Shown here one piece after another: positions 7,673 through 47,087 of a DNA stretch of 64,000 nt. Positions within the stretch are counted from its first letter, which is position 1. Each line of letters begins with the position of its first letter. A program made the translations under genes and the position numbers. The notes under the pieces are model-generated. The model made no database searches and was not told the origin of the DNA. It saw only the letters and a list, made by a program, of their open reading frames with translations. Where the stretch lies: assembly GCF_007860075.1 (NCBI RefSeq), contig NZ_SJPP01000002.1, forward strand, positions 1,116,001 to 1,180,000, given 5' to 3'. This stretch comes from Symmachiella macrocystis. Lineage in GTDB: Bacteria > Planctomycetota > Planctomycetia > Planctomycetales > Planctomycetaceae.

Positions 7673-7693
7673 TGAAAACACCCCTTTGGTAAA

Positions 7694-18888: not shown

Positions 18889-18929
18889 CTGAAACGCGAA
18901 TGTCGCAAACGTTTGCCGGAGAATCGCTA

Positions 18930-28521: not shown

Positions 28522-29544
28522 CTAGTCGATCCCCAACAGTTGCCGCATTCCTTCCAACGGTTGGATGTAGGTCAGAAACGGCAGGCCGTCGACGGTTGGT
28601 TCTTGGCGGCGGGTGACGCCGTCGACTGCGGGGCCGTGTAGGACGAATTGCTCGAGCACGTGGAACTGCTGGGCGGAGTCGTAGGGGGCGAGGTGCTGCG
28701 GGGCGTCATTTAGATGGGCGATGGCGGCGGCGAGGGCGTAGCCGCCCCAGTTGCTGGTGCCGGTGACGATGGTCCAGTCGGTGGCGATGCGACAGGGAAC
28801 GCGGCCGGCGTGGTCTCCTTCCAGTCGCCGATGCAGGTTTTCCCAGGGGATGCTCCCCATGCCGATTTCGTTGGCGCCGTCGCCGATGCCAATCGTTTTG
28901 ATATCGGATCGTGATTGGGCGACGAATTCGAAGAGGCGATGGAGATTCCCGGAATAGGCGTCTATCGCTTCGCCCCGCATGTTGTGGCAGCGGTCATGGG
29001 CGGCCGGCGGTACGTGTTGCTGGAATTCCTTGAGCGGAACCGTCCCGCCGCGGAGCTGAATGGTGAGCGAATCAGCGGTGTGACAGGGGCCGACCCGTTC
29101 GAGGGCGATCAGGTGCGTCAGTTGTTTACCGGGGGCGGATTGGAAAAACGTCTCGCCGGTGTCGTTGTCGTCGATCACGGTTTGATACACGCGATCGCTG
29201 GGGAACTCCATGGCTCGTGCGGCAGCGCACAGGGCCGTATGACAGCGACTGTCGGTGATGACGTGGGTCTCGACTCCCAACTTTTCCAGAATCGCTGCTA
29301 AAAACAAGGAGCCAAGCGGTCCGTCGGTCTCAGCGGCTGGAGGTTGGCCGCCGGGAATAAAAAAGCCGGTGACGATCCCCACCGAACGGGCATTTTCGGC
29401 GAGTTCGGCGGCAGCGGCGGCGAGATGCCCGGGGCACAATGCGCCAAATTCTCGCTCGGTTCCGATCAACCCGCGCTGTGCGGGATCCCGACGAATGAGT
29501 TCATCGAGTTGAGCGATCAATGGCGATGGTGGGGTGGAGGGCAT
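28522..29544 (-). CDS. D-glutamate cyclase-like protein (DUF4392)
   Basis: A 340-residue protein from the ATG at 29544; the frame opens further upstream at 29685 without a better start. Motifs: SVGIVTGFFIPGG, PAAETDGPLGSLFLAAILEK, CHNMRGEAIDAYS, IGIGDGANEIGMGSIPW, and a C-terminal ASNWGGYALAAAIA-like segment (TGTSNWGGYALAA). These match the C-terminal domain of D-glutamate cyclase (DUF4392), the enzyme converting D-glutamate to 5-oxo-D-proline in mammals. Whether it uses D-glutamate in this bacterium is not known. It stands alone between the secreted protein and the respiratory cluster. Confidence 0.85.
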   Translation of the reverse strand: MPSTPPSPLIAQLDELIRRDPAQRGLIGTEREFGALCPGHLAAAAAELAENARSVGIVTGFFIPGGQPPAAETDGPLGSLFLAAILEKLGVETHVITDSRCHTALCAAARAMEFPSDRVYQTVIDDNDTGETFFQSAPGKQLTHLIALERVGPCHTADSLTIQLRGGTVPLKEFQQHVPPAAHDRCHNMRGEAIDAYSGNLHRLFEFVAQSRSDIKTIGIGDGANEIGMGSIPWENLHRRLEGDHAGRVPCRIATDWTIVTGTSNWGGYALAAAIAHLNDAPQHLAPYDSAQQFHVLEQFVLHGPAVDGVTRRQEPTVDGLPFLTYIQPLEGMRQLLGID

Positions 29545-30086
29545 GTTCCTTATTGTGTATGGAATTGCGGAACGATTCAATTCGGTCGATGCGTCTCGGA
29601 GGCCTGAATCGACGCATTGGAGGGCGTGAAATCCCTCATGGCGCGTGGGGTTGGCGGGCAGTTTTTCGGTGGTTTTGGAGTGCAATCAGATGCTGGATCG
29701 AATATTCGGCGCTGTGGGTTGCTGCATGCTTCTCGTGCCTGGGAAACGACTTGAGTGGCATTCCTGGAACTGAGAAAACGGTCCGGAAACGGAGCTTCTC
29801 GGTTGTCAGCTGGGTTTCTTCATGCCAAAATCCTTTACTTATCGAAGAAGACCCGTCAATCAGGAATTCTTACAGTCGCAGTCAGCGCCGGTTGTGAGAA
29901 TACGTTGAGGCTCCTCAAATCATTGTGAATGATCCGGCATTTCATCGATGCGGAAATCACGATGCGCCTGAACCATCGAGTCGAATTTTCAAGCAATTGT
30001 CAGCGATTGGCACAATCAACGAGCGATAAGGTATCGCCCTGAATTGGTTGCGTCTCGTCTGCCTTTAGGGATTGGTTTGGAACCGC
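29545..30086. other. Long intergenic region upstream of the respiratory cluster
   Basis: 542 bases between the divergent DUF4392 gene and the Rieske gene; the longest gene-poor stretch of the window. A 125-codon frame (29520-29897) is not protein-like and is judged a chance opening. TTGAGGCTCCTCAA (29905-29918) has six-base inverted arms, and GCGATA/TATCGC lies at 30023-30037. The promoter(s) of the 21-kb respiratory cluster are expected here. Confidence 0.5.
30023..30037 (+). promoter_or_regulatory. Candidate operator upstream of the respiratory cluster
   Basis: GCGATAaggTATCGC is a perfect 6-bp inverted repeat around a 3-base spacer, ending 49 bases before the Rieske ATG. This is the size and position of a regulator-binding site or a short 5'-leader hairpin. 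No regulator is identified. Confidence 0.3.
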
Positions 30087-31220
30087 ATGGCAAAGATTCC
30101 AGACAGGAAGAACATGACCACCGCGGACATCTTGGCGTTTTGTCGCGCCGAGGCATCCGCCGGATCTTCATCGGACGCTCCGGCTGAGGAGGTTGTCGAG
30201 GCCCCTGCTCCGGAAGAAACAACCGCCGAAACACCTGCAGAGGAAGCACCCGCCGCAGAGTCCGCGCCGGCAGCTCCAGCTAAGAAGCCGACGTCGACGA
30301 AAGATATTCTGGCGGCGGCACGCGCAGCAGCGGCAGCAGGTGGTGAGAAAGCAGCGGCTCCTCCTGCGGCTGAGAAGCCCAAGGCAAAGGCCGCCTCCGG
30401 CGCCAAACCGACATCCACCAAAGATATACTAGCGGCCGCCCGCGCCCAAAAGGCGAGTGGTGGCGGGGCAGGTTCTGCAGCCCCGGCGAAGAAAAAAGAA
30501 GCTCCAGCTAAAGCGGCAACGACCGCCAGCGGCGACAAACCGTCGGTCAAGGAAATGCTGGCCGCGTTTCGCAACGAGAAACAAGCAGCGGGTGAGAAGG
30601 CGGCTCCTGCCGCGACCGACGCGGACGGCAAGAAGATGCCGCCCAAAATGCCGGTCCCGCCCCGTAAGCCCAAAGCCAAGCCAGTTCCGGCAGCAGTGGA
30701 TGAGAATCGCCGCAGCTTTTTGGCCGCACTGCTAGTCGTGCCGTCGGCTTTCGCCGCAGCATGGGTCATGCTGGCTGGCTCAGCGAGCGCGTGGTTGTTG
30801 GCACTGGTTCGCTTCGGTTTGCCCAATGTGTTGGTCGAGCCACCGAGCAAATTCAAGATCGGCTCGCCGGGAGATTACGACTTCGGCACGGTCTCGACAA
30901 AATGGAAAGCGGAACGTGGCATCTGGGTGGTGCACACGGATCGCTACAAAGGACAAAACGTGATCGTCGCCTTGTCGACGGTTTGCACACACTTGGGCTG
31001 CACGCCGAACTGGTTGGAAGGGGAACAAAAATTCAAATGCCCCTGTCACGGTTCGGGATTTTACATCGATGGAGTCAACTTCGAAGGTCCCGCGCCGCGA
31101 CCGTTGGAGCGACATGGTATCGTCGTCGCCGCTGACGGCATGCTGGAGGTCGACAAAGGCCTGAAGTTCCAAGAAGAGATGGGGCAATGGGAAGATCCCA
31201 AGTCCTTCGTTGGTGCCTAA
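30087..31220 (+). CDS. Rieske iron-sulfur protein with a repetitive N-terminal extension
   Basis: The Rieske [2Fe-2S] subunit of a bc-type quinol oxidoreductase, 377 residues (family norm about 180). CTHLGC (about residue 308) and CPCHGSGF (about residue 327) provide the two Cys and two His cluster ligands. A Tat-like anchor ENRRSFLAALLVVPSAFAAA precedes them (about residue 207). The first 200 residues are Ala/Pro/Lys-rich and carry four copies of a (S/T)xK(D/E)(I/M)LAAxR motif (about residues 11-26, 69-84, 109-124, 153-168) separated by low-complexity linkers. ATG codons at 30087 and 30114 are both possible starts; the latter follows AGGAAG. The extension would lie in the cytoplasm. First gene of the cluster. 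Confidence 0.92.
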   Translation: MAKIPDRKNMTTADILAFCRAEASAGSSSDAPAEEVVEAPAPEETTAETPAEEAPAAESAPAAPAKKPTSTKDILAAARAAAAAGGEKAAAPPAAEKPKAKAASGAKPTSTKDILAAARAQKASGGGAGSAAPAKKKEAPAKAATTASGDKPSVKEMLAAFRNEKQAAGEKAAPAATDADGKKMPPKMPVPPRKPKAKPVPAAVDENRRSFLAALLVVPSAFAAAWVMLAGSASAWLLALVRFGLPNVLVEPPSKFKIGSPGDYDFGTVSTKWKAERGIWVVHTDRYKGQNVIVALSTVCTHLGCTPNWLEGEQKFKCPCHGSGFYIDGVNFEGPAPRPLERHGIVVAADGMLEVDKGLKFQEEMGQWEDPKSFVGA

Positions 31221-31305: not shown

Positions 31306-32079
31306 ATGAAAATCGGCGAATATATTCGCGAGTCGCAAATTTGGAAGAGCGTTTTTCGGCATCCGGCGCCGTACGACCGTCGCAACCGCGTGGTGGTGAT
31401 GCTGACCAACTTCTTCCTGCATCTCCATCCGGTTTCGATCAAAAAACAGGGGATCGCCCTGTCTTACACCTGGTGCATGGGAGGGATTACCTTCTTCCTA
31501 TTCCTGGTGGAAACGGTCACCGGCGTGTTGCTGATGTTCTACTATAGACCCACGCTCGAACACGCATTCAACGACATACTCGCGCTGCGGGATGTGGCGA
31601 CGCTGGGCATCATGCGGGAAATTCACCGCTGGGGCGCCCACGGAATGGTGATTACGGTGTGGCTGCATATGTACCGCGTCTTTCTGACCGGCAGTTATAA
31701 ACCTCCACGCGAATTCAACTGGGTGGTCGGCGTGTTGCTGCTGGTGCTGACCCTCCTGCTATCGTTTACCGGCTATCTGTTGCCTTGGGACCAATTGGCC
31801 ATTTGGGCTATTACAGTCGGTTCCAACATGGCCCGCGCGACTCCGTTTTTGGGGAGTGAAGGTCCAGGTGCTCAGATTTTGAATATTGGCGGTTTCGACC
31901 TGATTACCTCCGGCAGTGACGCACGGTTTGTGTTGCTGGGCGGTCGTTTTGTCGGTGAAGCCACCTTGAATCGTTTCTACATTTTGCACTGCGTCTTCAT
32001 TCCGTTGGTTGTGGCGACATTGATTGCCATCCACTTCTGGCGTGTTCGCAAAGACGGCGGCATCAGCCAACCGCTGTAA
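31306..32079 (+). CDS. Cytochrome b, N-terminal (b6-type) subunit
   Basis: A 257-residue membrane protein with the four-helix cytochrome b core, carrying two haem b groups. Haem ligands are visible as His pairs: HRWGAHGMVITVWLHMYR on one helix and HCVFIPLVVATLIAIHFW on the other. GSYKPPREFNWVVGV and LPWDQLAIWAITVGSNM are typical quinone-site neighbours. It forms, with the next protein, a split cytochrome b as in b6f and some Gram-positive bc complexes. An 85-base gap separates it from the Rieske gene. It oxidises quinol together with the Rieske protein in the inner membrane. Confidence 0.95.
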   Translation: MKIGEYIRESQIWKSVFRHPAPYDRRNRVVVMLTNFFLHLHPVSIKKQGIALSYTWCMGGITFFLFLVETVTGVLLMFYYRPTLEHAFNDILALRDVATLGIMREIHRWGAHGMVITVWLHMYRVFLTGSYKPPREFNWVVGVLLLVLTLLLSFTGYLLPWDQLAIWAITVGSNMARATPFLGSEGPGAQILNIGGFDLITSGSDARFVLLGGRFVGEATLNRFYILHCVFIPLVVATLIAIHFWRVRKDGGISQPL

Positions 32080-32165: not shown

Positions 32166-33557
32166 ATGCATCATCCCGATCTCACGTCCGAAGTGATCTT
32201 TGGTCTCGGCTGGCTGTATTTGTTGCTATTTGCAATGAATGCGGCTTGGGCCTTTCGCGCTTATGTCGAAGGTCCCGGCAAGCATGACCACGAAAGCGGC
32301 GACAAAGGTCATGAAGGAGAGCATTGGTCAGACGGGCCCAGTTTGGCCTATACGACGACCTGGGCGATCATCTCCATGGGCTTCTTTTTGTTGGCCGTCA
32401 CGCACTTCACGGGAACAAGCGATCCCAGTGCGTTTTTGATTCGTATGCCGCAGTTTGTCAAAACGGGCATCGACGCGTTGGCCAATCCGGTGTTGTACTT
32501 CTTCGGCACAGTCGGCCTGTTCGTCTTGATGATCCTGCTCAGGCGAGTGCTGGCCAACGTCACCGTTGCCTGGGTGTTGCTGAATGTGACGATCGTGTTC
32601 ATCGCTTTGAGCATGACCGATTACGACTTCCGTCAAATCGTGGGCAAACCGGACAACGTGCCGATTGTCTCAATGTTATTTATCGTGGGATACTTCACTT
32701 GGCTGTATTTCCGCAAAGCCAATGACAACGACGATCGCATTGCCGCCGGCAAGCCGCTCTACGGAGAAGATGATAACGAGAAGGTTTTGGTCTGGCCGGA
32801 TCTGGTTTATACCGAATTGATCTGCATGGTGGCCTTAACCGCCCTGTTGGTGCTGTGGGGATGCGTCTTGCAAGCCCCGCTGGAAGAACCGGCCTCAGCG
32901 GTCAAGACTCCCAACCCCTCGAAAGCGCCGTGGTATTTTCTGGGTTTGCAGGAAATGCTGGTTTATTACGACCCCTGGATGGCCGGTGTGGTGCTGCCGT
33001 CTGTGATTCTGGTGGGTCTGATGGCGTTGCCCTACATCGATTTCAATAAACGGGGCAACGGTTATTACTCGTTCAATGAACGAAAATTCGCGATTCTGAC
33101 CTTCATGTTCGGCTTTTTGCCGTTGTGGATTGGGCTGATCGTGTTGGGGACGTTTTTGCGAGGTCCCAACTGGAACTTTTTCGGCATTTATGAGCCTTGG
33201 GACCCCCACAAGTTGGAGGTGCTCAACAACGTGAACTTGTCGGAGTATTTTTGGGCTTGGATGGGTCGGACTCCTCCCATTGCTGCCCCAGGCTCAAGTG
33301 GATTTGAGCAGTTTGTCATGATCCTGTTGCGGGAATCAGTGGGTCTGATATTGGTGGGCGCCTATTTGCTGGTGCTGCCGCCGTTGATGGCGGTGACAAT
33401 TTTTCGCAAGTTTTTCCGACACATGGGTTTCATCCGCTACTTCGTGTTGGCAAACCTGTTTTTGTTCATGGCCTGTTTGCCAATCAAAATGTTGTTGCGT
33501 TGGACCTTCAACCTGAAATATATCGTCGCGATCCCGGAATACTTCTTCAACATTTAG
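32166..33557 (+). CDS. Cytochrome b, C-terminal subunit (extended subunit IV)
   Basis: A 463-residue membrane protein, far longer than b6f subunit IV (about 160). The N-terminal 200 residues hold several extra transmembrane helices and a His/Asp/Glu-rich loop (GKHDHESGDKGHEG). The conserved C-terminal cytochrome b part begins at KAPWYFLGLQEMLVYYDPWM (about residue 253). The canonical PEWY quinol-site motif reads APWY here; this variant is known from some split cytochromes b. Further helices end in the C-terminal IVAIPEYFFNI. It pairs with the b6-type subunit upstream. Confidence 0.9.
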   Translation: MHHPDLTSEVIFGLGWLYLLLFAMNAAWAFRAYVEGPGKHDHESGDKGHEGEHWSDGPSLAYTTTWAIISMGFFLLAVTHFTGTSDPSAFLIRMPQFVKTGIDALANPVLYFFGTVGLFVLMILLRRVLANVTVAWVLLNVTIVFIALSMTDYDFRQIVGKPDNVPIVSMLFIVGYFTWLYFRKANDNDDRIAAGKPLYGEDDNEKVLVWPDLVYTELICMVALTALLVLWGCVLQAPLEEPASAVKTPNPSKAPWYFLGLQEMLVYYDPWMAGVVLPSVILVGLMALPYIDFNKRGNGYYSFNERKFAILTFMFGFLPLWIGLIVLGTFLRGPNWNFFGIYEPWDPHKLEVLNNVNLSEYFWAWMGRTPPIAAPGSSGFEQFVMILLRESVGLILVGAYLLVLPPLMAVTIFRKFFRHMGFIRYFVLANLFLFMACLPIKMLLRWTFNLKYIVAIPEYFFNI

Positions 33558-33685
33558 GCCCGTTGGGCAAGTTGATGATTCACTGTCCGTCGTGATAGTT
33601 GTTGCTTTGAAAACGACATGAGGTATCCGCAGCGCCGCATTTGAAGCGGACTGTCGGATTGTTGAAAACGAAAGTCTGGAAGACC

Positions 33686-36600
33686 ATGCCGGCTAACGAA
33701 GAATTCTGGCGACGTCCGAGTCGAATGCACGTGGTGTTTGCCATCAGCGCGCTTGTGCTCACGTTCGCAACGGTATTGATGCTCGTCAAAGATTACGACG
33801 ACGAGTGGAGGGTCTATCAACGCGAATTCTCCAAGAAAGACGCCGAGCGCGCCGAGCGTGAAGAAAAGGCGATTGCCGATAAGGCTTACTTGGAAACCGA
33901 AGCGAATTTGAAAGGCAAACTCAAAGACGCCGAGGACGACGTAAAGAGTCGGCAGGCAGAAGTGGACGAGATTGAAAAAGAGATCGCCGAACTCTCGACC
34001 GTCACATTGGCTTTGAATCGTTCTGTAAAATTTAAACGGGCGGAGCGTGACAAAGCGCGGGCCGATTATGATTTAGCAATCAGCAAGGATGCCCCCAAAG
34101 CCCGTCAGGACCAATTGAAGGAAATCTTTGACAGCAAACAGGCCATCGTCTCCGACATGGAGCAAGAGCTCGACGAGCAAACGGCGGCCTTGAACAATAA
34201 TGCTGAAGTCTTGAAGGAACTCCGCTCCGCCCAGTCGGCAGCAAAGGAAGAACTCAAGGACCACACCGAGGACTTTGTCCGTATTCAGGGTGACCGGCTG
34301 GCCAAAGAGCCAGAGTCTTGGGTGGCCATTACCAAAAAGACGTTCGTGAATGTTCCGCTGCTGGACCTCAACCCCACAAACAAGATCCAACAAATTTGGC
34401 TACCGGATTTGACGATCAACCTGGGAGGAATGAAGGACGTTCCTCGGTTTGACCGTTGTATCACCTGCCATCTGGCGACAGATCGTGTGGGGGCTGGAAA
34501 CGTTCCCGATTTTCCCGAAAGCGAATACCCCCATCCATTCGCCACGCATCCCCGGACCGATTTATTTATCACGGCATCCAGTCCGCACTCGCAGGCGAAA
34601 TTCGGCTGTACGATTTGCCATGATGGTCAAGGCTCGGGAACCAGTTTTCACAATGCCTCACATACCCCCAACGATCCGGTCATTGCCGCAGAGTGGAAGA
34701 AGGAATACGAGTACTTCCACAACCATTTTTGGGAAAACCCGATGTATCCCGATCGCTTCAAGGAGTCGACCTGCTTGAAGTGCCACCATGGCGTGACAGA
34801 ATTGGCTGAACATCCCAAGTTCGGAGCCAGTGCTCCTAAAGTGGTTGACGGTTGGGAAACGGTCGAAAAATTCGGTTGCTTTGGCTGCCACGAAATTCGC
34901 GGCTATGACGGTTTGAAATCCATTGGACCGGATTTGCGTCTGGAACCCAGCACCCCCGAACAAGCGGCCAAGATTGCTGAAGACCCCAACGCGATTCCCG
35001 GCAAGCTGCGTAAGGTCGGTCCTTCGTTGCGGCACATCAAGTCGAAAGTGACAACCGGATGGACGCAAGTGTGGGTCGAAGAACCCAAAAGCTTCCGTCC
35101 TTCGACGCGGATGCCGCAGTTCTTCCATCTGTCGAACCAACAAGATGAAGTTGCCAAGAAATACAGTCCTGTCGAAATTGCCGGAACGGTTGCTTACTTA
35201 ATGAGCCGTTCTGAAGCATTTGACGAATTGTCACCCGAGGAAGGCTATACGCCGGAAGCCGAACGGGGCAAACAGACATTCGCCACGCGGGGATGTTTGA
35301 ATTGCCACAATCACGCTGATTTCCCGGAGAGCCAGTCCGACTTCGGTCCGGACCTGACAAAAGTGCATGAAAAATTGCTCCCCGGTGAAGCGGGATTCCG
35401 CTGGTTGTATACCTGGATTCGCGAGCCCAGCCGTTACCATGCCCGCACAAAGATGCCTGATCTGTTTTTGGATCCGGAAGTCAAAGACGGAGTGACCATT
35501 GACCCGGCAGCGGACATTGCTGCTTACCTGCAACAAGGGGGCTCGAAGAACTTCGGCATGCTTGAGTGGAACGGTCCGGGTGTGGAAGCGGATAAATCAG
35601 CACTGGATGAGATGGTGCAAATGTTCCTGGCCAAGGCCATTTCTCTGCGGTCGGCCAAGCAAGCCATGATTGATGGTAAGCTTCCCGAAAATATGACGGA
35701 AGAGACCATCAAGGGGGATGAAATTGAATTGTTCGGCGAGACGATCACCGAAGAAATGAAGCTGCGTTACATCGGCCGTCGCACGATTTCGCGCTATGGC
35801 TGTTACGGTTGCCATGACATTCCTGGCTTTGAAGACGCTCGTCCGATCGGAACCGCGCTACAAGACTGGGGACGCAAGGATCCCTCGAAATTGGCATTTG
35901 AACACATTGGGGAATATCTGCACCACTTCGGTGAACCCAACGGTTCCAGTACGGCGGAACGGGCCAAATTGGCCGTTATGAATGCGGAGAACGAAAGCTT
36001 TCCCGCTGATGAAAACCCTGAAACGGAACTGGCGGTCGCCTATTTCTACGACCAAATCAATCACCACGGCCGCCCAGGTTTTGCGTGGCAAAAGCTGCGT
36101 GCTCCGCGGAGTTATGATTATCGCAAGATCGAAACCAAGGGTTACGACGAGCGATTGCGGATGCCGAAATTCCCCTTCAGTGAAGAGGAAAACGAAGCGG
36201 TCGTCACCTTTGTGTTGGGCTTAACGGCTGATCCACCCGAGTCGGAGTATGTGTATACGCCGACCGGGCCGGACAAGGACCGCCTAGAGGGCGAGAAGCT
36301 GCTGAAGAAGTACAATTGCACCGGTTGTCACATGGTCGACATGCCGGAGATTCTTGCGGCGATCGACCCGGAAGAGTTGCTGGCCACCGATACCAGCGGC
36401 GAATATCCGGAGGCACTTGAACTGCTTTATAAATTGAAGCCCATTCATCAAGGAGAAACCGGCGAGACGATGCATCTGCCGGCCACGGAGTACGACGAGG
36501 CTCGGGATCTGCCGGTGATCAGTTTCCACGGCATGGCCACAGCAACTCCCGATCCCGATGACGCCATCGAAGATCAAGAGTATTCATTCCAGCTTTGGGA

Positions 36601-37396
36601 ACCGCTTCAAGTCGGCGAAACATTGATGCTTCCTTCTGAACCGATGTTAGTCCCAGCTCAACAGTTGGTGTCCAACAACAAGGGTCGCGGCGGAGAGTTC
36701 GCAAGATTCTTGGTGAAATATTTGGTCGAACAGGACAGCCAATTGCAATCGGGCGATGCGTGGCAAATGTCACCACCGCCGCTGTACCAGGAAGGGATCA
36801 AGGTCCAAACGCCTTGGCTGTATAAATTCCTCAAAAACCCGGACCGATTGCGTTTCTCAACAGTGTTGCGGATGCCCAAGTTCAATATGAGCGATGAGGA
36901 GGCCCTGGTCCTGGCCAACTATTTTGCCGCCGTCAACGGGGCGGAGTATCCGTATCAGGACATCCCGCAGCGCGAACCGGAGTACCTGTCGATACAAAAT
37001 GCGAAGTATCCGCATTATCTCGAGGAGTCCTGGAAGCTGTTCAACATTCCTCGTCCGGATGGTTTGTGCGTGAAGTGTCACCAATTCGGCGGCATGGAAT
37101 ACACATCGACCGACCCCAAAGACAAACGGGGACCCAACCTGAACCGGGTCGAATCACGATTGCGACCTGATTGGACGTTGTTGTGGATTTCAAATCCGAA
37201 ATGGATCACGCCCTACACAGCGATGCCGCAAAACTTCAAGAAGGCCACTCCCCAGTTTCCGCAGTTTTTCGGAGGCGAAGGGGATGTCCAGACGCGGGCC
37301 ATCCGCGATGCGTTGATGAATTATCACCGCATGATGGAACAGAACGAAAAAGTCGCCGGCAGCGAAACCGCTCCGGGTCAGGCGGGAGGCCAGTAA
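33686..37396 (+). CDS. Membrane-anchored octahaem cytochrome c
   Basis: A 1236-residue protein from the ATG at 33686 (a TTG at 33641 is also in frame). An N-terminal transmembrane helix (HVVFAISALVLTFATVLMLV) is followed by about 190 residues of charged coiled coil. Then come eight CxxCH haem c motifs: CITCH (residue 258), CTICH (308), CLKCH (363), CFGCH (398), CLNCH (537), CYGCH (706), CTGCH (878) and CVKCH (1128). Repeated cytochrome c-type segments (GPDLTKVHEKLLPGEAGFRW, RMPKF) suggest fused cytochrome c modules. Its place directly after cytochrome b suggests it replaces cytochrome c1 and carries electrons away from the Rieske protein. It faces the periplasm or paryphoplasm. Confidence 0.93.
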   Translation: MPANEEFWRRPSRMHVVFAISALVLTFATVLMLVKDYDDEWRVYQREFSKKDAERAEREEKAIADKAYLETEANLKGKLKDAEDDVKSRQAEVDEIEKEIAELSTVTLALNRSVKFKRAERDKARADYDLAISKDAPKARQDQLKEIFDSKQAIVSDMEQELDEQTAALNNNAEVLKELRSAQSAAKEELKDHTEDFVRIQGDRLAKEPESWVAITKKTFVNVPLLDLNPTNKIQQIWLPDLTINLGGMKDVPRFDRCITCHLATDRVGAGNVPDFPESEYPHPFATHPRTDLFITASSPHSQAKFGCTICHDGQGSGTSFHNASHTPNDPVIAAEWKKEYEYFHNHFWENPMYPDRFKESTCLKCHHGVTELAEHPKFGASAPKVVDGWETVEKFGCFGCHEIRGYDGLKSIGPDLRLEPSTPEQAAKIAEDPNAIPGKLRKVGPSLRHIKSKVTTGWTQVWVEEPKSFRPSTRMPQFFHLSNQQDEVAKKYSPVEIAGTVAYLMSRSEAFDELSPEEGYTPEAERGKQTFATRGCLNCHNHADFPESQSDFGPDLTKVHEKLLPGEAGFRWLYTWIREPSRYHARTKMPDLFLDPEVKDGVTIDPAADIAAYLQQGGSKNFGMLEWNGPGVEADKSALDEMVQMFLAKAISLRSAKQAMIDGKLPENMTEETIKGDEIELFGETITEEMKLRYIGRRTISRYGCYGCHDIPGFEDARPIGTALQDWGRKDPSKLAFEHIGEYLHHFGEPNGSSTAERAKLAVMNAENESFPADENPETELAVAYFYDQINHHGRPGFAWQKLRAPRSYDYRKIETKGYDERLRMPKFPFSEEENEAVVTFVLGLTADPPESEYVYTPTGPDKDRLEGEKLLKKYNCTGCHMVDMPEILAAIDPEELLATDTSGEYPEALELLYKLKPIHQGETGETMHLPATEYDEARDLPVISFHGMATATPDPDDAIEDQEYSFQLWEPLQVGETLMLPSEPMLVPAQQLVSNNKGRGGEFARFLVKYLVEQDSQLQSGDAWQMSPPPLYQEGIKVQTPWLYKFLKNPDRLRFSTVLRMPKFNMSDEEALVLANYFAAVNGAEYPYQDIPQREPEYLSIQNAKYPHYLEESWKLFNIPRPDGLCVKCHQFGGMEYTSTDPKDKRGPNLNRVESRLRPDWTLLWISNPKWITPYTAMPQNFKKATPQFPQFFGGEGDVQTRAIRDALMNYHRMMEQNEKVAGSETAPGQAGGQ

Positions 37397-39656: not shown

Positions 39657-39735
39657 CGGTATGAATTACGTTCTGTTTTGTAAGGCGATGGATTTGGTCC
39701 ATCGCCGGGCAATTAGTTTTTTTGAGGTTGTTGTC

Positions 39736-41148
39736 GTGAAACCCCGATTCGTTATTCTCTCGGCTGCCTCGCTGCTGGCTGTGACCCTCGCCGGTTGTGG
39801 CGACTTTAAGTCCGTGTTTTCGTACAACAAAACAACGGACGAGTTGATCAAACCGGCGCAAAGGGTCGTAAAAACCGAACTCAAAGAGAATTTCGGAACA
39901 CCTGAAGCGTTGGTCGCCTGGCTGAAATTCCAGTTCGACTTCGGCGCCGAAGAGTCTGTAACGGTCAAAGTCAATTCCTTTGATACGGCCGCGAAGGGAG
40001 TCGTTGTTTTGGACAACACCGACGACCTGGGAGTGGACTTGGAGGGAGCAACGCTCAAACTGTCCACCGACGCCGTTCACGACATTGTCAGCTATGACTC
40101 AGAGTCGGGACAATTGCATGTCACGCCCCCGATCGCAACGGAATTGACCGACGACGACAGTGTGACGATCGTAACTAAGCCTCATGGCTGGAAACTGGTC
40201 CGCGGTCGCAATTTGTATATGATTCATTGCGTGCACTGCCACGGAGTCAGCGGCGACGGCGCCGGACCGACAGCGCAATATCTCAATCCGCTTCCGCGCG
40301 ATTATCGTCAAGGCAAGTTTAAGTTCACCTCCACGATTTCGACTGAAAAAGCAGCACATCGCGATTTTCGACAGACTCTGTACGAGGGGATTCAAGGCAC
40401 GAGCATGCCTTCCTTCAAATTAAAATTGATTGGCGACGACATGGATGCAATCATCGCCTATGTGTTGTTCCTGTCTTCACGGGGTGAATACGAGATTAAT
40501 CTTGGCAACGAAATGAAAGTGCTTGGTGGCGGTAAACAAGAAGTCCAAGATCGCCTACGTGACGAGCAGGGACTCACTCGGCAGCAAGTTTTCAAAGAAT
40601 TCCAAGAGCAAGAAGAACTCAGTACCGGTTTGACGGAACTTTCCGACGAAGTGGGGATGATTCTGGCTGAGGACTGGGAACGGGCCAATTCGCCGGAAGT
40701 GGAAGTCTTTCCTAAAAAGCCTCGTCCGGAACCAACGGCTGAATCGATTGCCCGCGGCCGCGCGTTGTTCATTTCCAAGGATGCCAAATGTTCGGACTGC
40801 CATGGCATGCAAGGCAATGGGAACGGCCCGCAAACAGAGGCTTATCAACAACTTCCCGGTTCTTCGCTGACGTACGACAAGCCGGGGCTGTACGACGATT
40901 GGGGACACCCGATCAAACCTCGGAATCTACACACCGGTATTTATCGTGGCGGACGACGTCCGTTGGACATCTACCGTCGGATCAGCGCCGGGATTAAAGG
41001 CGCGTTGATGCCCGGCTTTGGGACATCATTGAGTGATGATCAGATTTGGGATCTGGTGAATTACGTCATGAGCATCCCTTACGAGAATAATTTGTCCCCC
41101 GAGTCGGTGCCGGCTGAAAAAACTGTTGCCGAACATATTACAAAATAA
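39736..41148 (+). CDS. Dihaem cytochrome c lipoprotein
   Basis: A 470-residue lipoprotein. The frame opens at an ATG at 39661, but the GTG at 39736 follows a TGAGG and opens directly with a lipoprotein signal (KPRFVILSAASLLAVTLAGC). Two CxxCH motifs are present: CVHCHG (residue 165) and CSDCHG (residue 352), each followed by cytochrome c module signatures (GIQGTSMPSFK; ISAGIKGALMPGFGTS). The N-terminal 160 residues are not haem-binding. It is probably the electron carrier delivering to the oxidase, encoded just before subunit II, which itself lacks a haem c domain. Confidence 0.9.
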   Translation: MKPRFVILSAASLLAVTLAGCGDFKSVFSYNKTTDELIKPAQRVVKTELKENFGTPEALVAWLKFQFDFGAEESVTVKVNSFDTAAKGVVVLDNTDDLGVDLEGATLKLSTDAVHDIVSYDSESGQLHVTPPIATELTDDDSVTIVTKPHGWKLVRGRNLYMIHCVHCHGVSGDGAGPTAQYLNPLPRDYRQGKFKFTSTISTEKAAHRDFRQTLYEGIQGTSMPSFKLKLIGDDMDAIIAYVLFLSSRGEYEINLGNEMKVLGGGKQEVQDRLRDEQGLTRQQVFKEFQEQEELSTGLTELSDEVGMILAEDWERANSPEVEVFPKKPRPEPTAESIARGRALFISKDAKCSDCHGMQGNGNGPQTEAYQQLPGSSLTYDKPGLYDDWGHPIKPRNLHTGIYRGGRRPLDIYRRISAGIKGALMPGFGTSLSDDQIWDLVNYVMSIPYENNLSPESVPAEKTVAEHITK

Positions 41149-41235: not shown

Positions 41236-42054
41236 GTGAGAAAGTTTTGGTGCCTATTTTTTATGTTCTGGCCGATGTTGGCCATCGCCGTGTGCGTGGT
41301 TGCCCCCACGAATGGTTGGTGGTTTCCCAGCGTCGCTCCGTGGGAACTGGGCCAACAGATCGACGATTTGTTCAATCTGTTGCTGATCATCACAACAGTC
41401 GTGTTTATCGGCACGCAAGTCGCGCTGGGTTATGTGCTCTGGAAAGGGACGACCGTCAAAACGGGCGGTGCTTGGTTCAGCCATGGCAGCCACAACCTAG
41501 AAGTGATTTGGACGATTCTGCCGGCGATCATTCTGTTGTTCATTTCGTTGTACCAGATGGATGTCTTGGCGCGGATTCGCGTGATGAGTCAGTTTCCCGA
41601 ACAAGCGCGCGATGCTCCGGTTGCGGAGGTTTCCGCTCGGCAGTTTGAATGGCGGATTCGTTATCCGGCGCCGGGCAAGAAACTGATGCCGCAACCGCAA
41701 CCGACAGATCTGTATACTGTCAACGATTTGCACGTGCCGGTCGGTAAACCGGTCATGATTCGCCTTCGCAGTGAAGACGTCCAACACAGTTTCGGCCTTC
41801 CAGAATTACGATTGATGCAGGATGCGGTGCCCGGACTCGTGATTCCCGTCTGGTTCCAATCCAACACAACTGGCAAGTATGACATTGTGTGCAAGGAACT
41901 TTGCGGTTGGGGGCACTACAAAATGCAGGGCGAACTGACGGTTGAGTTGCAAGAAGAATACGACGCTTACCTGCAAGCCCTGCAGGCAAAAATGAACGAC
42001 GACGGCTTTTCGGCCGAAGCGAACAATGCTGTGGCCCAAAGCAATGAGGATTGA
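41236..42054 (+). CDS. ctaC: Cytochrome c oxidase subunit II
   Basis: A 272-residue protein with GTG start preceded by AGGGAG. An N-terminal hydrophobic segment and two transmembrane helices (about residues 45-65 and 90-110) are followed by the cupredoxin domain. The CuA ligands are visible: His in EDVQHSF and the cluster CKELCGWGHYKM. ARQFEWRIRYPAPG is typical. It receives electrons from a c-type cytochrome. There is no fused cytochrome c domain, unlike caa3 subunit II. It is followed by subunit I after three bases. Confidence 0.96.
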   Translation: MRKFWCLFFMFWPMLAIAVCVVAPTNGWWFPSVAPWELGQQIDDLFNLLLIITTVVFIGTQVALGYVLWKGTTVKTGGAWFSHGSHNLEVIWTILPAIILLFISLYQMDVLARIRVMSQFPEQARDAPVAEVSARQFEWRIRYPAPGKKLMPQPQPTDLYTVNDLHVPVGKPVMIRLRSEDVQHSFGLPELRLMQDAVPGLVIPVWFQSNTTGKYDIVCKELCGWGHYKMQGELTVELQEEYDAYLQALQAKMNDDGFSAEANNAVAQSNED

Positions 42055-42057
42055 TTC

Positions 42058-43872
42058 ATGAGTATCGCGACGCACGACACGGCCGGCGCCCATTCGCACG
42101 ACGACCACGCACATGGGGGTCATCCCGAGATCGGCTTTGTCCGTAAATATATCTTCTCGACAGACCATAAGGTCATCGGCATTCAGTTTTTGATCACCAC
42201 ATTACTGATGCTGATGGTTGGGGGTGCGTTAGCGCTGGCGGTCCGTTGGCAACTGGCGTTTCCCTGGCAGTGGATGCCGATCGCCGGCGACTTGGAGGTG
42301 TTCAAAGATCAAGGAGGGATCATCTCTCCCGAGTTTTATACGATGCTCTTCACCATGCACGCCACGGTGATGATCTTTTTGGTCATCATTCCCGTGCTGG
42401 CAGGAGCGTTTGGTAACTTTTTGATTCCGCTACAAATCGGTGCCGATGATATGGCGTTTCCGACGCTGAACATGCTGAGCTATTGGTTTATGTGGCCGGC
42501 GATTGTTCTGTTTGGAATCAGTTTTGTCATCGGCGGTGTCACGGCTGGCCCCGCCGCGGGTTGGACTTCTTATCCAGTGCTCTCTGCCATCGCTTCGGCT
42601 GCTCCCGGTTCCGGGGCGGCTCAGACGTTTTGGTTGTTGGCGGTCACCTGCGTCGGTGTTTCCTCCATGATGGGTTCGGTCAACTACATGACCACCATCA
42701 TCAACATGCGGGCTCCGGGAATGACATTGTTCCGCATGCCGATGACGATTTGGGGAATGTTCATCACTGCTATTTTGCAATCCTTCGCTCTGCCGGTGTT
42801 GACGGCTGCGGGTTTCATGGTGCTTTTTGACCGGACCATGGGAACCTGCTTTTTTGTGCCGGCGGGACTTGTCGTGAATAATGCCGACCCCACGATTGGT
42901 GGTGGCCAACCGCTGTTGTGGCAACATCTGTTTTGGTTCTATTCACACCCAGCTGTGTACATCATGTTGCTGCCGGCGATGGGCATGGTCTCGGACATTT
43001 TGTGTGCATTCGCCCGCAAACCGCTGTTCGGTTACAAGCCGATGGTGTATTCGCTGGCGGCCATTGCCGGGCTGGGCTTTATTGTGTGGGGCCACCATAT
43101 GTTTACCTCCGGTATGAATCCCGCCTTGGGCATGACATTCATGGTTTCGACGATGATGATCGCCCTCCCCTCAGCTGTGAAAACGTTCAACTGGATTGGA
43201 ACGTTGTGGGGCGGCAATTTGATCTTTACGACGCCGATGTTGAATTCCGTAGCATTCATCTCGATGTTCATCGTCGGGGGCTTGAGCGGAATTTTCATGG
43301 CAGCGGTGCCTGTCGACCTGTATATCCACGACAGTTATTTCATCGTGGCTCACTTCCATTATGTGTTGTTTGGAGCCACGCTGTTTGGTGTGTTTGGTGC
43401 GATTCACTTTTGGTTCCCCAAAATGTTCGGTCGCATGATGAACGACAATGTGGGCAAACTTCACTTTGTGTTGACGTTCATCGGATTCAACGGCACGTTT
43501 TTCACCATGCATCTGTTGGGTGTGGCCGGTATGCCGCGTCGGTTGGCCGATCCGTTTAACTACCCCTACTTGGAACATTTGTTGCCGTTGAATCAGTTCA
43601 TGACCTATTCGGCCATGCTGATGGGATTTGCGCAATTCCTGTTGCTGGGCAACTTCTTCTATAGCATGTTCTGGGGGCCGAAATGCGGTCGCAATCCTTG
43701 GAATGCCAACGGGCTGGAATGGGATGCTCCCTCGCCGCCGCCGCACGGTAACTTTGATTCGATCCCGGTCGTCTACCGCGGACCGTACGAGTACTCCTCG
43801 CCGCTAACCGACAAGGATTACCTGCCGCAGACGGAATACATTCCGCCGCGCCCGCAGCCTGGAACCACTTAG
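42058..43872 (+). CDS. ctaD: Cytochrome c oxidase subunit I (A2-type haem-copper oxidase)
   Basis: A 604-residue catalytic subunit with 12 transmembrane helices; reduces O2 to water at a haem a3-CuB centre. Haem a ligand: FTMHATVMIFL. CuB and the Tyr cross-link lie in FWFYSHPAVYIM, further CuB histidines in WGHHMFTSGM, and haem ligands in IVAHFHYVLFG. The Glu of the A1 D-channel (HPEVY) is replaced by HPAVY with a preceding YS: the A2 subtype, as in Thermus caa3. A His-rich N-terminus (HSHDDHAHGGH) may bind metal. The start is three bases after the subunit II stop. Confidence 0.97.
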   Translation: MSIATHDTAGAHSHDDHAHGGHPEIGFVRKYIFSTDHKVIGIQFLITTLLMLMVGGALALAVRWQLAFPWQWMPIAGDLEVFKDQGGIISPEFYTMLFTMHATVMIFLVIIPVLAGAFGNFLIPLQIGADDMAFPTLNMLSYWFMWPAIVLFGISFVIGGVTAGPAAGWTSYPVLSAIASAAPGSGAAQTFWLLAVTCVGVSSMMGSVNYMTTIINMRAPGMTLFRMPMTIWGMFITAILQSFALPVLTAAGFMVLFDRTMGTCFFVPAGLVVNNADPTIGGGQPLLWQHLFWFYSHPAVYIMLLPAMGMVSDILCAFARKPLFGYKPMVYSLAAIAGLGFIVWGHHMFTSGMNPALGMTFMVSTMMIALPSAVKTFNWIGTLWGGNLIFTTPMLNSVAFISMFIVGGLSGIFMAAVPVDLYIHDSYFIVAHFHYVLFGATLFGVFGAIHFWFPKMFGRMMNDNVGKLHFVLTFIGFNGTFFTMHLLGVAGMPRRLADPFNYPYLEHLLPLNQFMTYSAMLMGFAQFLLLGNFFYSMFWGPKCGRNPWNANGLEWDAPSPPPHGNFDSIPVVYRGPYEYSSPLTDKDYLPQTEYIPPRPQPGTT

Positions 43873-43944
43873 ATCGATTCGTCCGCCGTTTATGAACCTT
43901 CCGTTGGCAATTTTGATTCGCGACAACCAAATCGTCACAGCACC

Positions 43945-44910
43945 ATGAAACCAACCGTCTATCAACCTTGGGTCTTTCGATTCGCCGTGTTTACGGCGTG
44001 CGTAGCCCTTTTGCCGATTGTGATGGGCGGGTTGGTGACCACGATGAAAGCTGGCATGGCGTTCGCCGATTGGCCTTCGTCGGATGGGCACGGCATGTTC
44101 GCCTATCCTTGGCTGCAATCGGCCGGGGACAAATTCTTCGAACATGGACACCGCTTAGCGGGGATGTTGATTGGCTTTGTCAGCATTGCGCTGGCAGCCA
44201 TCCTGTGGGTGTTTGAAAAACGTACCTGGGTTCGTTGGTGCGGAGTGGCTGTGCTGTTGTGCGTGATCGCCCAAGGCTTGTTGGGTGGCCAGCGCGTCTT
44301 GCTGGACCAACTCGGGCTGGCATTTTTGCACGGCGGATTTGCGAATCTGGTCTTTGCGTTTATGGCGGCAGTGGCGCTGTTCACCAGCCGTGGTTGGCTG
44401 AACGCCGCAGAAAAGACCGTCCCCAACAACATCCGCCGCATCCGCACATTCGCAGCGGCTAGTACGGCTGTGTTATTTGTACAATACATACTGGGCGGGC
44501 TACTGCGACATCTGGGTTGGTGGCCGCACCAACATCTGGGTTTTGCGGTGGTCGTTTTCGTTGTGGTCTCGATGACCGTTTGGGTTTCACGGACCGACAA
44601 ACAGCCTTGGATTTGGAAACCGGCACACTGGCTGGCTATGATGTTAGTCGTACAGATCGCCTTGGGCCTTGGAGCCTGGCTGACGAAATTCGGCTTTGGC
44701 AACTATTTGGTTGTTGAAGGATCCCTGTCGCAGGTGATCTTTCGCACAGCGCATTTCGTCGTCGGTTTGCTGACGTTTATGGTTTCGGTGAATCTTCTGC
44801 TCCGTGCTGCACGCCTGTGTGCGGTAGCCGGTTCGCTGAACAACGCACCGGTCTTGGAAAGTTCCTTTGTTTCGCCCCATCCTTTCGGTTTGCAAGGAGG
44901 CGCCCGATGA
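43945..44910 (+). CDS. ctaA: Haem A synthase
   Basis: A 321-residue, eight-helix membrane protein converting haem O to haem A for the oxidase. Conserved histidines are in FEHGHRLAGMLIGF, FLHGGFANL, WPHQHLGFAVV and RTAHFVVGLL. The N-terminal segment MGGLVTTMKAGMAFADWPSS is the family signature region. The stop overlaps the ctaB start by four bases (ATGA), so both are translationally coupled. Confidence 0.95.
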   Translation: MKPTVYQPWVFRFAVFTACVALLPIVMGGLVTTMKAGMAFADWPSSDGHGMFAYPWLQSAGDKFFEHGHRLAGMLIGFVSIALAAILWVFEKRTWVRWCGVAVLLCVIAQGLLGGQRVLLDQLGLAFLHGGFANLVFAFMAAVALFTSRGWLNAAEKTVPNNIRRIRTFAAASTAVLFVQYILGGLLRHLGWWPHQHLGFAVVVFVVVSMTVWVSRTDKQPWIWKPAHWLAMMLVVQIALGLGAWLTKFGFGNYLVVEGSLSQVIFRTAHFVVGLLTFMVSVNLLLRAARLCAVAGSLNNAPVLESSFVSPHPFGLQGGAR

Positions 44911-45848
44911 GAAGCTCCACCGCTCAAGCTTCGACCTATGCCTCCACGGAGACAGTCGCAATTCCGTTACGCCGACATTGGACCGATCGTATTGCGGATT
45001 ACGTCGAAATCTCCAAACCGCGGATCTCATTTTTCGTTTTGATCTCCGTAGCTGCCGGGTTTCTGCTGGGCGGCAGCGGCGAGTTTCAAGTCTGGACCCT
45101 CGCGAATGCGTTGCTGGGAATCGCCCTGGTGGCGACCGGCTCCAGCGCTTTGAATCAGTACTACGAGCGGGACACCGATGCCCGTATGGAACGGACGCTT
45201 TCCCGCCCCATTCCCTCAGGACGCTTGTCCGCGGGAGAAGTTTTGACGATGGGGCTGGTCAGCGGAATCGTGGGTTGCGTTTATTTGGCACTGTTCGTCA
45301 ACCTGCTGACCGCCGCTTTGGCAGCAGCGACCTACCTGGCCTACACGCTGATTTATACGCCGCTGAAACGGATCTCGACGGTTAACACCGCCGTGGGAGC
45401 TGTGCCGGGCGCACTGCCGCCGGTACTGGGTTGGACGGCAGCCGGCGGAAGTTTAGATTTCAACGCATTTATGATGTTTTCGATTTTGTATTTATGGCAA
45501 TTCCCGCACTTCATGGCAATTGCCTGGTTGTACCGCGATGATTATCGCCGTGCTGGTTTGAAGATGATTCCCGCAGTCGAAGACCGCAAACAGGTCACTG
45601 GATTTGTAGCGGTTGGCTACGCCTTGGCGCTGTTGCCGGTCAGTCTGTTGCCGGGACAAATGGGACTGGCGGGTGATATTTACTTTGTGGTCGCATTGGT
45701 TTTTGGTGTGATCTATCTCTGGACGGCCGTTCGATTCTGCAAAACCGAATCGGTCCGCACAGCCCGACAGTTGCTACTGGCTTCGCTGGCGTATTTGCCG
45801 GCAGTCTGGTTGGCGATGGTGGGCGAACACCTGCATTTATTGAATTGA
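44907..45848 (+). CDS. ctaB: Protoheme IX farnesyltransferase (haem O synthase)
   Basis: A 313-residue UbiA-type prenyltransferase converting protohaem to haem O. The first Asp-rich motif is NQYYERDTDARMERTLSRPI; the second is YRDDYRRAGLKMIP. VEISKPRISFFVLISVAAG opens the first helix. The ATG at 44907 overlaps the ctaA stop (ATGA) and is preceded by AAGGAGG, an ideal Shine-Dalgarno sequence; the frame reaches upstream to 44817 inside ctaA, which is not used. Confidence 0.95.
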   Translation: MRSSTAQASTYASTETVAIPLRRHWTDRIADYVEISKPRISFFVLISVAAGFLLGGSGEFQVWTLANALLGIALVATGSSALNQYYERDTDARMERTLSRPIPSGRLSAGEVLTMGLVSGIVGCVYLALFVNLLTAALAAATYLAYTLIYTPLKRISTVNTAVGAVPGALPPVLGWTAAGGSLDFNAFMMFSILYLWQFPHFMAIAWLYRDDYRRAGLKMIPAVEDRKQVTGFVAVGYALALLPVSLLPGQMGLAGDIYFVVALVFGVIYLWTAVRFCKTESVRTARQLLLASLAYLPAVWLAMVGEHLHLLN

Positions 45849-45978
45849 GAGAACGGTGCCGCCACGACATTGGTAGCACACATTTGCCGTCCCTACATCG
45901 TGTTTGTTCAACGCAATAATTTTTGAGAAACCGTAGGGGTTTTTGGAAACAGTTCAGAACGGTTTAGAAGAAGAACTC

Positions 45979-47016
45979 ATGTCGCATCAATCCGGACACC
46001 CACCATTGAAGATGGGGATCGACATTCCTAATGGAAAATTGGGAATGTGGTTGTTTCTGGGTACGGAAATCATGTTTTTCACGGCCTTCATCGGCAGCTA
46101 CATCGTGCTGCGGATTGGATCCGATGGCTGGCCAACTGATGTGGATGTCACGCACATCCGCATCTGGGCGGGAGGCACGAATACGTTTGTGCTGATCTGT
46201 TCCAGCGTGGCGGTGGTATTCGCCTTAGAAGGCATGCGGAGCAAGGATTTCCAACTCGCCCGCAAATGGCTGTTCGTCACCTTAATACTTTCGTTCGTGT
46301 TTTTAGGCATCAAAAGCTACGAATACTACGGAAAATTCGACCACAACATTCTGCCGGGACAGATCCCCGAGACCAACAGCCAGGCCTTGGCCTTTACTGC
46401 TCGCGACCTCCGCGCTGCGACGGGAATTGATCCTCAAACAGAAAAACTGAAGCGGATGGAAACGCAGATGGCTGAATTGCAAAAGAAGGGGCGTAGCACC
46501 GAGTCGCTGCAGAAACGCATCGACGCGCAAAAAAAAGTCGTCGAAGAGATCACACCGATCGCCAACAAAGTCGTGGCGATCAACGACCGCGTGAAGGCGG
46601 GCACCATCGAACTCGGAGTGGCCGCGGAGCATGGCAAAGATGCGCCGCCAGGACATTCTGCCGCCGAGACCGCGACCACTGAAAAACCGGCAGCCGAACA
46701 TCCTGTCGAAGAGGCGGGCAAATCGACCATGGTTTCCGAAGTCGCCCGACTTCATAAAGAAAACCCAGAGGTGTTTGGCTCAGTTCAAGTACCGCATCCC
46801 ATTAAGTTCGGCAACCTATTCGCATCCTGTTATTTCATCATGACCGGTTTCCATGCGATCCACGTGTTGGTCGGCATGGCCATGTTTATTATGCTGTTGG
46901 CCTACGGCAGCAAATTGGGCTCGCAACATGAAGTGTTTGTCGAGAATGCGGGGCTGTATTGGCACTTTGTCGACTTGGTCTGGATCTTCTTGTTCCCGCT
47001 GCTTTATATTATCTAG
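45979..47016 (+). CDS. ctaE: Cytochrome c oxidase subunit III with a large internal insertion
   Basis: A 345-residue protein from the ATG at 45979 (a TTG at 45943 is in frame). Typical N-terminal helices: GMWLFLGTEIMFFTAFIGSY, TFVLICSSVAVVFAL, WLFVTLILSFVFLGIKSYEY. The C-terminal helices are SCYFIMTGFHAIHVLVGM and WHFVDLVWIFLFPLLYI. Between them, about 140 residues (roughly 132-272) are hydrophilic, with a coiled-coil-like segment and a His/Ala/Glu/Pro-rich stretch; ordinary subunit III has only a short loop here. It stabilises subunit I and O2 access. The insertion would be on the outer side if topology is canonical. Confidence 0.92.
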   Translation: MSHQSGHPPLKMGIDIPNGKLGMWLFLGTEIMFFTAFIGSYIVLRIGSDGWPTDVDVTHIRIWAGGTNTFVLICSSVAVVFALEGMRSKDFQLARKWLFVTLILSFVFLGIKSYEYYGKFDHNILPGQIPETNSQALAFTARDLRAATGIDPQTEKLKRMETQMAELQKKGRSTESLQKRIDAQKKVVEEITPIANKVVAINDRVKAGTIELGVAAEHGKDAPPGHSAAETATTEKPAAEHPVEEAGKSTMVSEVARLHKENPEVFGSVQVPHPIKFGNLFASCYFIMTGFHAIHVLVGMAMFIMLLAYGSKLGSQHEVFVENAGLYWHFVDLVWIFLFPLLYII

Positions 47017-47087
47017 CCCTCCCGTCGCTAATTGATTGACGACTTCAAAACGGACACCTTGGCGGATAATGGCGCGTTTCGCCTCTG

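Follow-up and report, generated by a model that had tools for sequence, protein, structure and literature searches.

A short peptide motif occurs four times in a tail of about 205 residues at the N-terminus of a Rieske protein from Symmachiella macrocystis. This repeat is real, conserved and under selection. The same motif or a similar one is carried by other proteins, among them a protein with an SH3-like barrel, and the tail is read here, with slightly better than an even chance, as a multivalent docking array on the cytoplasmic membrane face for which the SH3-like protein is the candidate organiser.

Rieske protein and gene neighbourhood

Features of the window (the whole stretch of DNA that was analysed, 64,000 nucleotides) are listed in Table 1. 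The PF00355 match covers residues 286-341 of the Rieske protein (E 6.4e-8, 32.9 bits against a cut-off of 20.3). Membership as a bc1/b6f-type subunit was assessed from the ligands, which follow the pattern C-x-H ... C-x-x-H, and from cytochrome b, which is encoded by the next two genes (PF00033 and PF00032). The closest solved relative is PDB 9rk3 (E 1.4e-34). The best NCBIfam scores were 58.8 of 250 bits (b6f) and 54.9 of 97.4 bits (bc1), both below cut-off, which places the protein in the same superfamily and in none of the modelled subgroups. It resembles the Rieske proteins of bc1 and b6f complexes (QcrA/PetC) in its ligand motifs, in the hydrophobic anchor behind a twin arginine and in the position of the gene beside a split cytochrome b, but differs from them by the long tail with its four motif copies. 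Neither Pfam nor NCBIfam placed a model in this tail.

The twin arginine and the hydrophobic stretch behind it begin at residue 208, which sets the length of the tail. RR was found 55-150 residues ahead of the HLGC motif in all 51 Rieske ORFs tested. Judging from the sequence, the tail should therefore remain cytoplasmic. It had been suggested from the DNA alone that a cytoplasmic partner docks on the tail and feeds electrons to the Rieske protein. The one point in favour is that the tail sits on a redox protein. As the cluster domain is located past the membrane anchor, and should thus face the side of the membrane opposite to the tail, electron feeding from the tail side is extremely improbable and the suggestion was not borne out; tails also occur without any Rieske domain.

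An antisense ORF of 263 codons (30065-30856, minus strand) spans the whole tail and is probably a shadow of its Ala/Pro codons. The multihaem cytochrome c downstream has a long charged N-terminal part, possibly a coiled coil. Elsewhere in the window, three small proteins with a hydrophobic stretch (SRLPRT...GALMVW.PYHR) were found similar by eye (7046-7681, 7694-8416 and 62842-63612, minus strand). Two adjacent proteins, at 18241-18888 and 18855-19592 (plus strand), are similar to each other; we presume that they may be SMI1/KNR4-like.

Table 1. Features of the Rieske gene region, with positions in the window
Feature	Positions	Strand	Remarks
D-glutamate cyclase-like gene, divergent upstream neighbour of the Rieske gene	28522..29685	-	Synteny marker
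Rieske protein, bc/b6f-type complex, 377 aa, about 205-aa N-terminal tail	30087..31220	+	Translation from ATG 30087; PF00355
Motif copy 1, aa 10-23, contains TTADILAFCRA	30114..30155	+	Least typical copy
Linker 1, acidic, net -8, Ala/Pro/Glu-rich	30156..30287	+	
Motif copy 2, aa 68-80, PTSTKDILAAARA	30288..30326	+	E 6.7e-6 to A1 (A1 includes copy 2)
Linker 2, net +3	30327..30407	+	
Motif copy 3, aa 108-120, 13 residues as copy 2	30408..30446	+	E 1.6e-7 to A1 (A1 includes copy 3)
Linker 3, net +3	30447..30536	+	
Motif copy 4, aa 151-164, contains SVKEMLAAFRN, membrane-nearest copy	30537..30578	+	E 0.00135 to A1
Pro/Lys-rich stretch before the membrane anchor, net +4	30579..30707	+	
Twin arginine (30708-30713) and hydrophobic anchor	30708..30815	+	By eye; end approximate
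Rieske [2Fe-2S] domain	30942..31109	+	CTHLGC at 30984, CPCH at 31038
Cytochrome b, N-terminal part	31306..32079	+	PF00033, E 1.7e-41
Cytochrome b, C-terminal part, own separate gene	32166..33557	+	PF00032, E 3.1e-5
Multihaem cytochrome c, 8 CxxCH	33641..37396	+	Pfam, CxxCH count
Dihaem cytochrome c	39661..41148	+	Homologue adjoins free-standing tail in G009, G084 and G015
Cytochrome c oxidase cluster: COX2, COX1, CtaA, UbiA-type (CtaB-like), COX3, COX4	41236..47528	+	

Motif copies and linkers

The segment TTADILAFCRA begins at residue 11, STKDILAAARA at residues 70 and 110, and SVKEMLAAFRN at residue 153. In relatives, the usual form of the motif is [ST]-x-x-[DE]-[IM]-[LM]-A-x-[AILV]-R. Against profile A1, which was made from Rieske tails of relatives, copy 1 reached only E 0.39 in its own genome; it is nonetheless kept in G002, a genome of the same genus.

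The first 205 residues contain 30% Ala, 13% Lys and 12% Pro. The best 15-residue self-match within them has a score of 65; 2,000 shuffles of the same residues gave a mean of 34.2 (sd 3.6) and a maximum of 52. After removal of the two exact copies, copies 1 and 4 still matched the core better than all 5,000 shuffles of the remainder. Copies 2 and 3 are identical in all 13 residues and differ in 8 of 13 codons, all synonymously, which rules out a recent DNA duplication.

Selection on motif and linkers

Copies within the same protein were compared in 149 pairs from 55 distinct Rieske ORFs. Amino-acid identity was 0.72, with motif positions 4, 7 and 10 restricted by the search pattern, so that the constancy of these three positions is partly by construction. 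Four-fold degenerate third bases differed in 0.68 of cases in the same pairs, where random codon choice would give 0.71. Between the window and G002, pN/pS was 0.05 for the motifs, 0.10 for the anchor and Rieske domain and 0.37 for the linkers. Six of seven orthologue pairs had a motif identity of 0.80-1.00 against a linker identity of 0.42-0.59; in the seventh, formed by the window genome and the near-identical G001, the values were 0.95 and 0.94. Silent sites have thus been randomised while the peptide was retained, and together with the pN/pS contrast this means that selection keeps the motif peptide while the linkers drift.

That the repeat is functionless low-complexity drift is therefore hardly credible. 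Its Ala/Pro/Lys-rich composition would fit such an origin, and the linkers do drift, but the shuffle tests, the randomised silent sites under a kept peptide and the low pN/pS of the motifs argue against it, as does the presence of the motif in many genera and in other proteins (below). The preliminary description of this DNA had reported four repeated segments, which were recovered to within one residue, and had named a lack of conservation in orthologues as its refutation; this was looked for and not found, as orthologues keep the motif.

Distribution of the Rieske tail

This type of Rieske protein is present in 64 of 81 family genomes, own genome included (E <= 1e-20), and the motif in 65 of the 81, representing 47 of 58 genera (profile A1, E <= 0.003). 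Both searches were positive in 62 of the 64 Rieske genomes; this is a tally per genome, and the motif need not be located in the Rieske gene. The two remaining genomes are G065, with the variant DILASIKGGG, and G077, with a Rieske protein that has no tail. Among the 17 family genomes without this Rieske protein, G009, G023 and G084 pass the motif threshold and G015 just misses it (E 0.005). In a draw of 149 genomes from the phylum, own genome included, the identical six have the motif and the SH3-like protein and 143 have neither (thresholds 3e-4 and 1e-3).

In a scan with A1 at a cut-off of 8 bits, 45 of 52 distinct Rieske ORFs carried at least two motif copies and 40 at least three, A1 having been built partly from the same proteins. 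The scan omits fetched Rieske loci, including L008, L018, L025 and L129, that were missed by the ligand pattern. One of the scanned loci, L028, is truncated by a contig end; L036, L037, L038 and L039 score zero copies, and a single copy is scored in each of L031 and L120. A more distant family (L031, L032, L035 and L038) has a related repeat, of which LTLKEKLAAAR is an example, and three further families of the class, represented by one Rieske protein each (L036, L037 and L039), gave no motif copy. Thalassoglobus neptunius and Blastopirellula marina are among the named organisms with the Rieske tail.

Other carriers and free-standing tails

The motif might have been a feature of Rieske proteins only, a question raised when it was first noticed; this was rejected, as it is also present in the SH3-like protein, in nitrite-reductase fusions and in free-standing tails. 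Fusions of nitrite/sulphite reductase with Rieske and FAD domains, identified in G006 by Pfam and in G002 by eye, contain one motif copy, located in the linker that joins the Rieske part to the FAD part (loci L095 and L096, E 3e-5 and 0.0016). At both loci, a single ORF of 968-996 residues joins nitrite/sulphite reductase, rubredoxin-like, Rieske and FAD/NAD domains.

Two membrane proteins, L100 (2498-4948) and L118 (2199-4445) in G008 and G012, have a shorter form of the motif. They are cytochrome-b-like by eye and have no informative Pfam match. Their neighbours are, according to Pfam for L118, a cNMP-binding/ferredoxin gene and, by eye, a gene containing several haem motifs. The shorter-motif repeats are numerous, with GGSPLDAIKAGGAKKP in L100, and the L118 protein has a second repeated hairpin, TTLLTDKYGYGEKLASEIA. 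One copy was found in a cytochrome-c-assembly (CcsA-like) protein, L097, in G042 (E 0.006). Two small proteins have one N-terminal copy each, L116 (E 1.6e-5) and, weakly, L102 of the window genome (E 0.035); the latter, at 1590-2486, starts with MAKKRTTAEIIAAARN and is a possible single-copy carrier. The redox theme among the carriers is incomplete, L116 and L102 being small, uncharacterised proteins and L100 and L118 lacking an informative Pfam match. Matches in an alanyl-tRNA synthetase of G050 (L098) and in a methyltransferase of G047 (L109) were taken as chance. These genomes may hold further carriers.

Four genomes without this Rieske protein, namely G015, G023 and the congeneric G009 and G084, have an ORF of 262-367 residues that is composed of motif copies and linkers. 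In G009, G084 and G015, this free-standing tail lies just upstream of a homologue of the dihaem cytochrome c gene of the window, which is followed by COX2 and COX1 in G009 and by CtaA and a UbiA-type gene in G015. In G023 it adjoins a glutamate-cyclase-like gene, the upstream neighbour of the Rieske gene in the window. Inspection by eye showed the dihaem cytochrome gene of G061 and G098 to come after the glutamate-cyclase-like gene; the interval holds no ORF of at least 100 residues.

Comparison of the free-standing tails of G009 and G084 gave a pN/pS of 0.31 for the motifs and 0.60 for the linkers; the two share the C-terminus GGWFARLFE(S/T)R. In view of this contrast and the kept C-terminus, the free-standing tail does not look like a decaying remnant. 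From their composition, our guess is that the aromatic C-termini hold these tails to the membrane. The motifs themselves are very unlikely to be amphipathic helices lying on the membrane surface. The aromatic ends could do so, and two of seven motif strings exceed the lipid-binding discriminant of 0.68, through charge, but the motif has a low hydrophobic moment and few bulky residues.

SH3-like protein as second carrier

The SH3-like protein is encoded in the window genome at G000:C3:594202 and consists of a barrel of about 75 residues followed by repeats on Ala/Pro/Lys linkers. Its repeats here have the shorter form, SPLERARMEGAAG; those of B. marina and genomes like it read STADILAAARAKK, close to the Rieske tail. 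Both forms occur within one protein in some cases, e.g. L188, and it is argued that they do the same job.

Of 75 SH3-like tails, 21 matched profile A1, made from Rieske tails only, with at least 12 bits, and none of 1,500 shuffles did so; in 20 of these 21 tails the match lies elsewhere than the shorter-form copies. Profile A2 matched 62 of the 75 and either profile 73, again with no match of either among 1,500 shuffles, but the A1 figure alone is independent since A2 was itself derived from tails of SH3-like proteins, some of them in the same genomes. The 75 tails derive from 80 named loci, of which five had no ATG by the rule applied; some loci are truncated at contig ends. Two to four copies are present in 58 of the 75 tails, overlaps being counted once.

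The protein is present in 73 of the 81 family genomes. Among the best 80 of 188 loci in the public genome collection, all titles are planctomycete except three that read 'bacterium'. Genomes with both the Rieske and the SH3-like protein, with Rieske only, with SH3-like only and with neither number 62, 2, 11 and 6, respectively (Fisher p 8e-4, uncorrected for kinship). Since 11 of 81 genomes encode the SH3-like protein but not this Rieske protein, an obligate partnership with the Rieske tail is unsupported. The two Rieske genomes without the SH3-like protein, G018 and G064, are assemblies in about 1,200 and 590 contigs. In G046, which has a variant tail, no SH3-like match was obtained at E up to 1. 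Six neighbourhoods of the SH3-like gene, inspected by eye, had no common neighbour, and operon context gave no clue.

No Pfam family recognises the SH3-like protein. Scattered, weak Pfam matches on 40 of these proteins (Mersacidin being the commonest, in 5 proteins, E 0.0022) were not taken as real. In L261 (G065) and L262 (G007), the SH3-like protein has an extra C-terminal domain that looks like a helix-hairpin-helix; L261 matches PF14520 (E 2.2e-5, 25.3 bits against a cut-off of 27), and the likeness of L262 was judged by eye.

Rieske proteins are Tat substrates, and the tail directly precedes the twin-arginine anchor. It might for this reason act in assembly, by binding a chaperone or a proofreading factor up to the point of cluster insertion and Tat export. 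Such a role is decidedly unlikely, as the motif is also found C-terminal on the SH3-like protein, with no export signal in evidence there, and inside nitrite-reductase fusions and free-standing proteins without a Rieske domain.

Predicted structure of the SH3-like protein

For two SH3-like proteins, AF2 models built on 40 and 26 sequences gave a confident barrel, with ten-residue pLDDT means of 80-96. Each model has four short helices, which fall on four of four motif copies in the first protein and on four of six in the second, with pLDDT means of about 58 to 86, the last copy being best. The two non-helical copies of the second model count against the helix reading.

By Foldseek and VIA-align, the barrel falls among small barrels of the SH3-like/KOW type. 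The highest VIA Z scores were obtained for 6khi_S (8.2) and 6hum_S (8.1), both chain S of cyanobacterial complex I, and 3c4s (Ssl0352, 7.8); all three are presumably NdhS. Further matches were 7c2b_B (FTR complex, 7.6), 2n5u (PetP, 7.1) and 6a7k (titled NdhS, 6.9). KOW domains of transcription factors, at Z 7.5, are tied with these PetP/NdhS-like matches, and the best match by Foldseek is the KOW-bearing Spt5 (E 7.7e-4). Against PDB sequences, profile A3 of the SH3-like protein gave nothing significant (best E 0.5), and the motif profile gave no match up to E 10.

Excerpts of one article place PetP on the cytoplasmic face of cytochrome b6f and describe its fold as common to NdhS, PsaE and the FTR subunit (PMC9342900). 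The likeness to PetP of cytochrome b6f, NdhS of NDH-1 and the FTR subunit concerns the fold of the SH3-like carrier, not the window Rieske protein; the carrier differs by its lack of a PDB sequence match and by the tie with KOW domains in Z. SH3-like barrels are common and a Z near 8 is not decisive, so a kinship of the modelled barrel with PetP/NdhS is a lead, not an assignment.

Proposed function

Under the docking reading, each copy would form a short helix with an N-terminal capping pattern (S/T, then D/E three residues on), an Ile-Leu pair and an Arg; one helix per copy is the prediction, modelled in the two SH3-like relatives. The linkers would give the helices reach. The copies would bind one common partner, each weakly and together strongly, and the bc complex would thereby be tethered close to other carriers. 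A variable copy number is expected if avidity matters. The SH3-like protein, commonly with two to four copies, would be the best candidate organiser, in the role of partner or of cross-linker. In genomes that are missing this Rieske protein, the tail could persist alone, perhaps held at the membrane by its short aromatic C-terminus.

That a bc subunit, other redox proteins and the SH3-like protein all bear the same or a similar plug suggests that they share a partner, or cross-link one another, at the cytoplasmic face. Binding, docking and a network of tails are what we infer; no partner of the tail was found in this computational analysis, which counts against docking. Of the docking motifs proposed in the preliminary description, the repeated and conserved motif, the flexible linkers and the predicted cytoplasmic side thus stand, docking itself is a deduction, and the supply of electrons to the Rieske protein has been dropped.

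Alternatively, the helices could associate with themselves, so that the carriers form one weak homotypic network beneath the membrane and no receptor is needed. This would fit the recurrence of the motif, or of one like it, in several proteins, the variable copy number, the low-complexity linkers and the fact that no receptor was found, and one-copy proteins could be clients. Nevertheless, such a network is rather unlikely: the computed hydrophobic moments of the motif copies are low (0.09-0.34), which leaves little surface for self-association, and one-copy carriers would contribute little.

The docking array can be extended to a wider picture, which is more tentative and on the doubtful side. 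One capped-helix motif might be the common plug of the respiratory chain of Planctomycetia, borne on floppy arms by nitrite reductase and ferredoxin-linked membrane proteins as well as by the bc complex and free-standing, membrane-tethered tails, and gathered into an array or condensate by a PetP/NdhS-like SH3 protein with similar arms. The tail would then outlive the complex in some lineages because it serves the network rather than the complex.

The pyrenoid linkers EPYC1 and CsLinker would be alike by mechanism, with short helices (here predicted) on disordered linkers, and no sequence relation is claimed. The likeness rests on repeats and linkers; the present array differs in being fused to a subunit of a membrane complex. 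In the excerpted text on CsLinker, a single helix binds Rubisco without demixing it (PMC11570498).

A second possible likeness is to the E2 component of 2-oxoacid dehydrogenases, in which peripheral subunit-binding domains are carried on Ala/Pro linkers. These are small helical binding modules, as is proposed for the motif copies; the motif of the window is much shorter. Pfam detected no such domain in the window Rieske protein or in the SH3-like protein, although a diverged short fragment could escape such a search.

Among the open-access papers listed, no title or opening of an abstract indicated the repeat motif. We know of no account of what tethers the respiratory complexes of planctomycetes to one another at the cytoplasmic face. 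A motif common to a subunit of the bc complex and to several unrelated proteins would offer a handle on this cytoplasmic organisation. If the proposal is true, it would extend the helix-and-linker principle of pyrenoid scaffolds to bacterial respiration.
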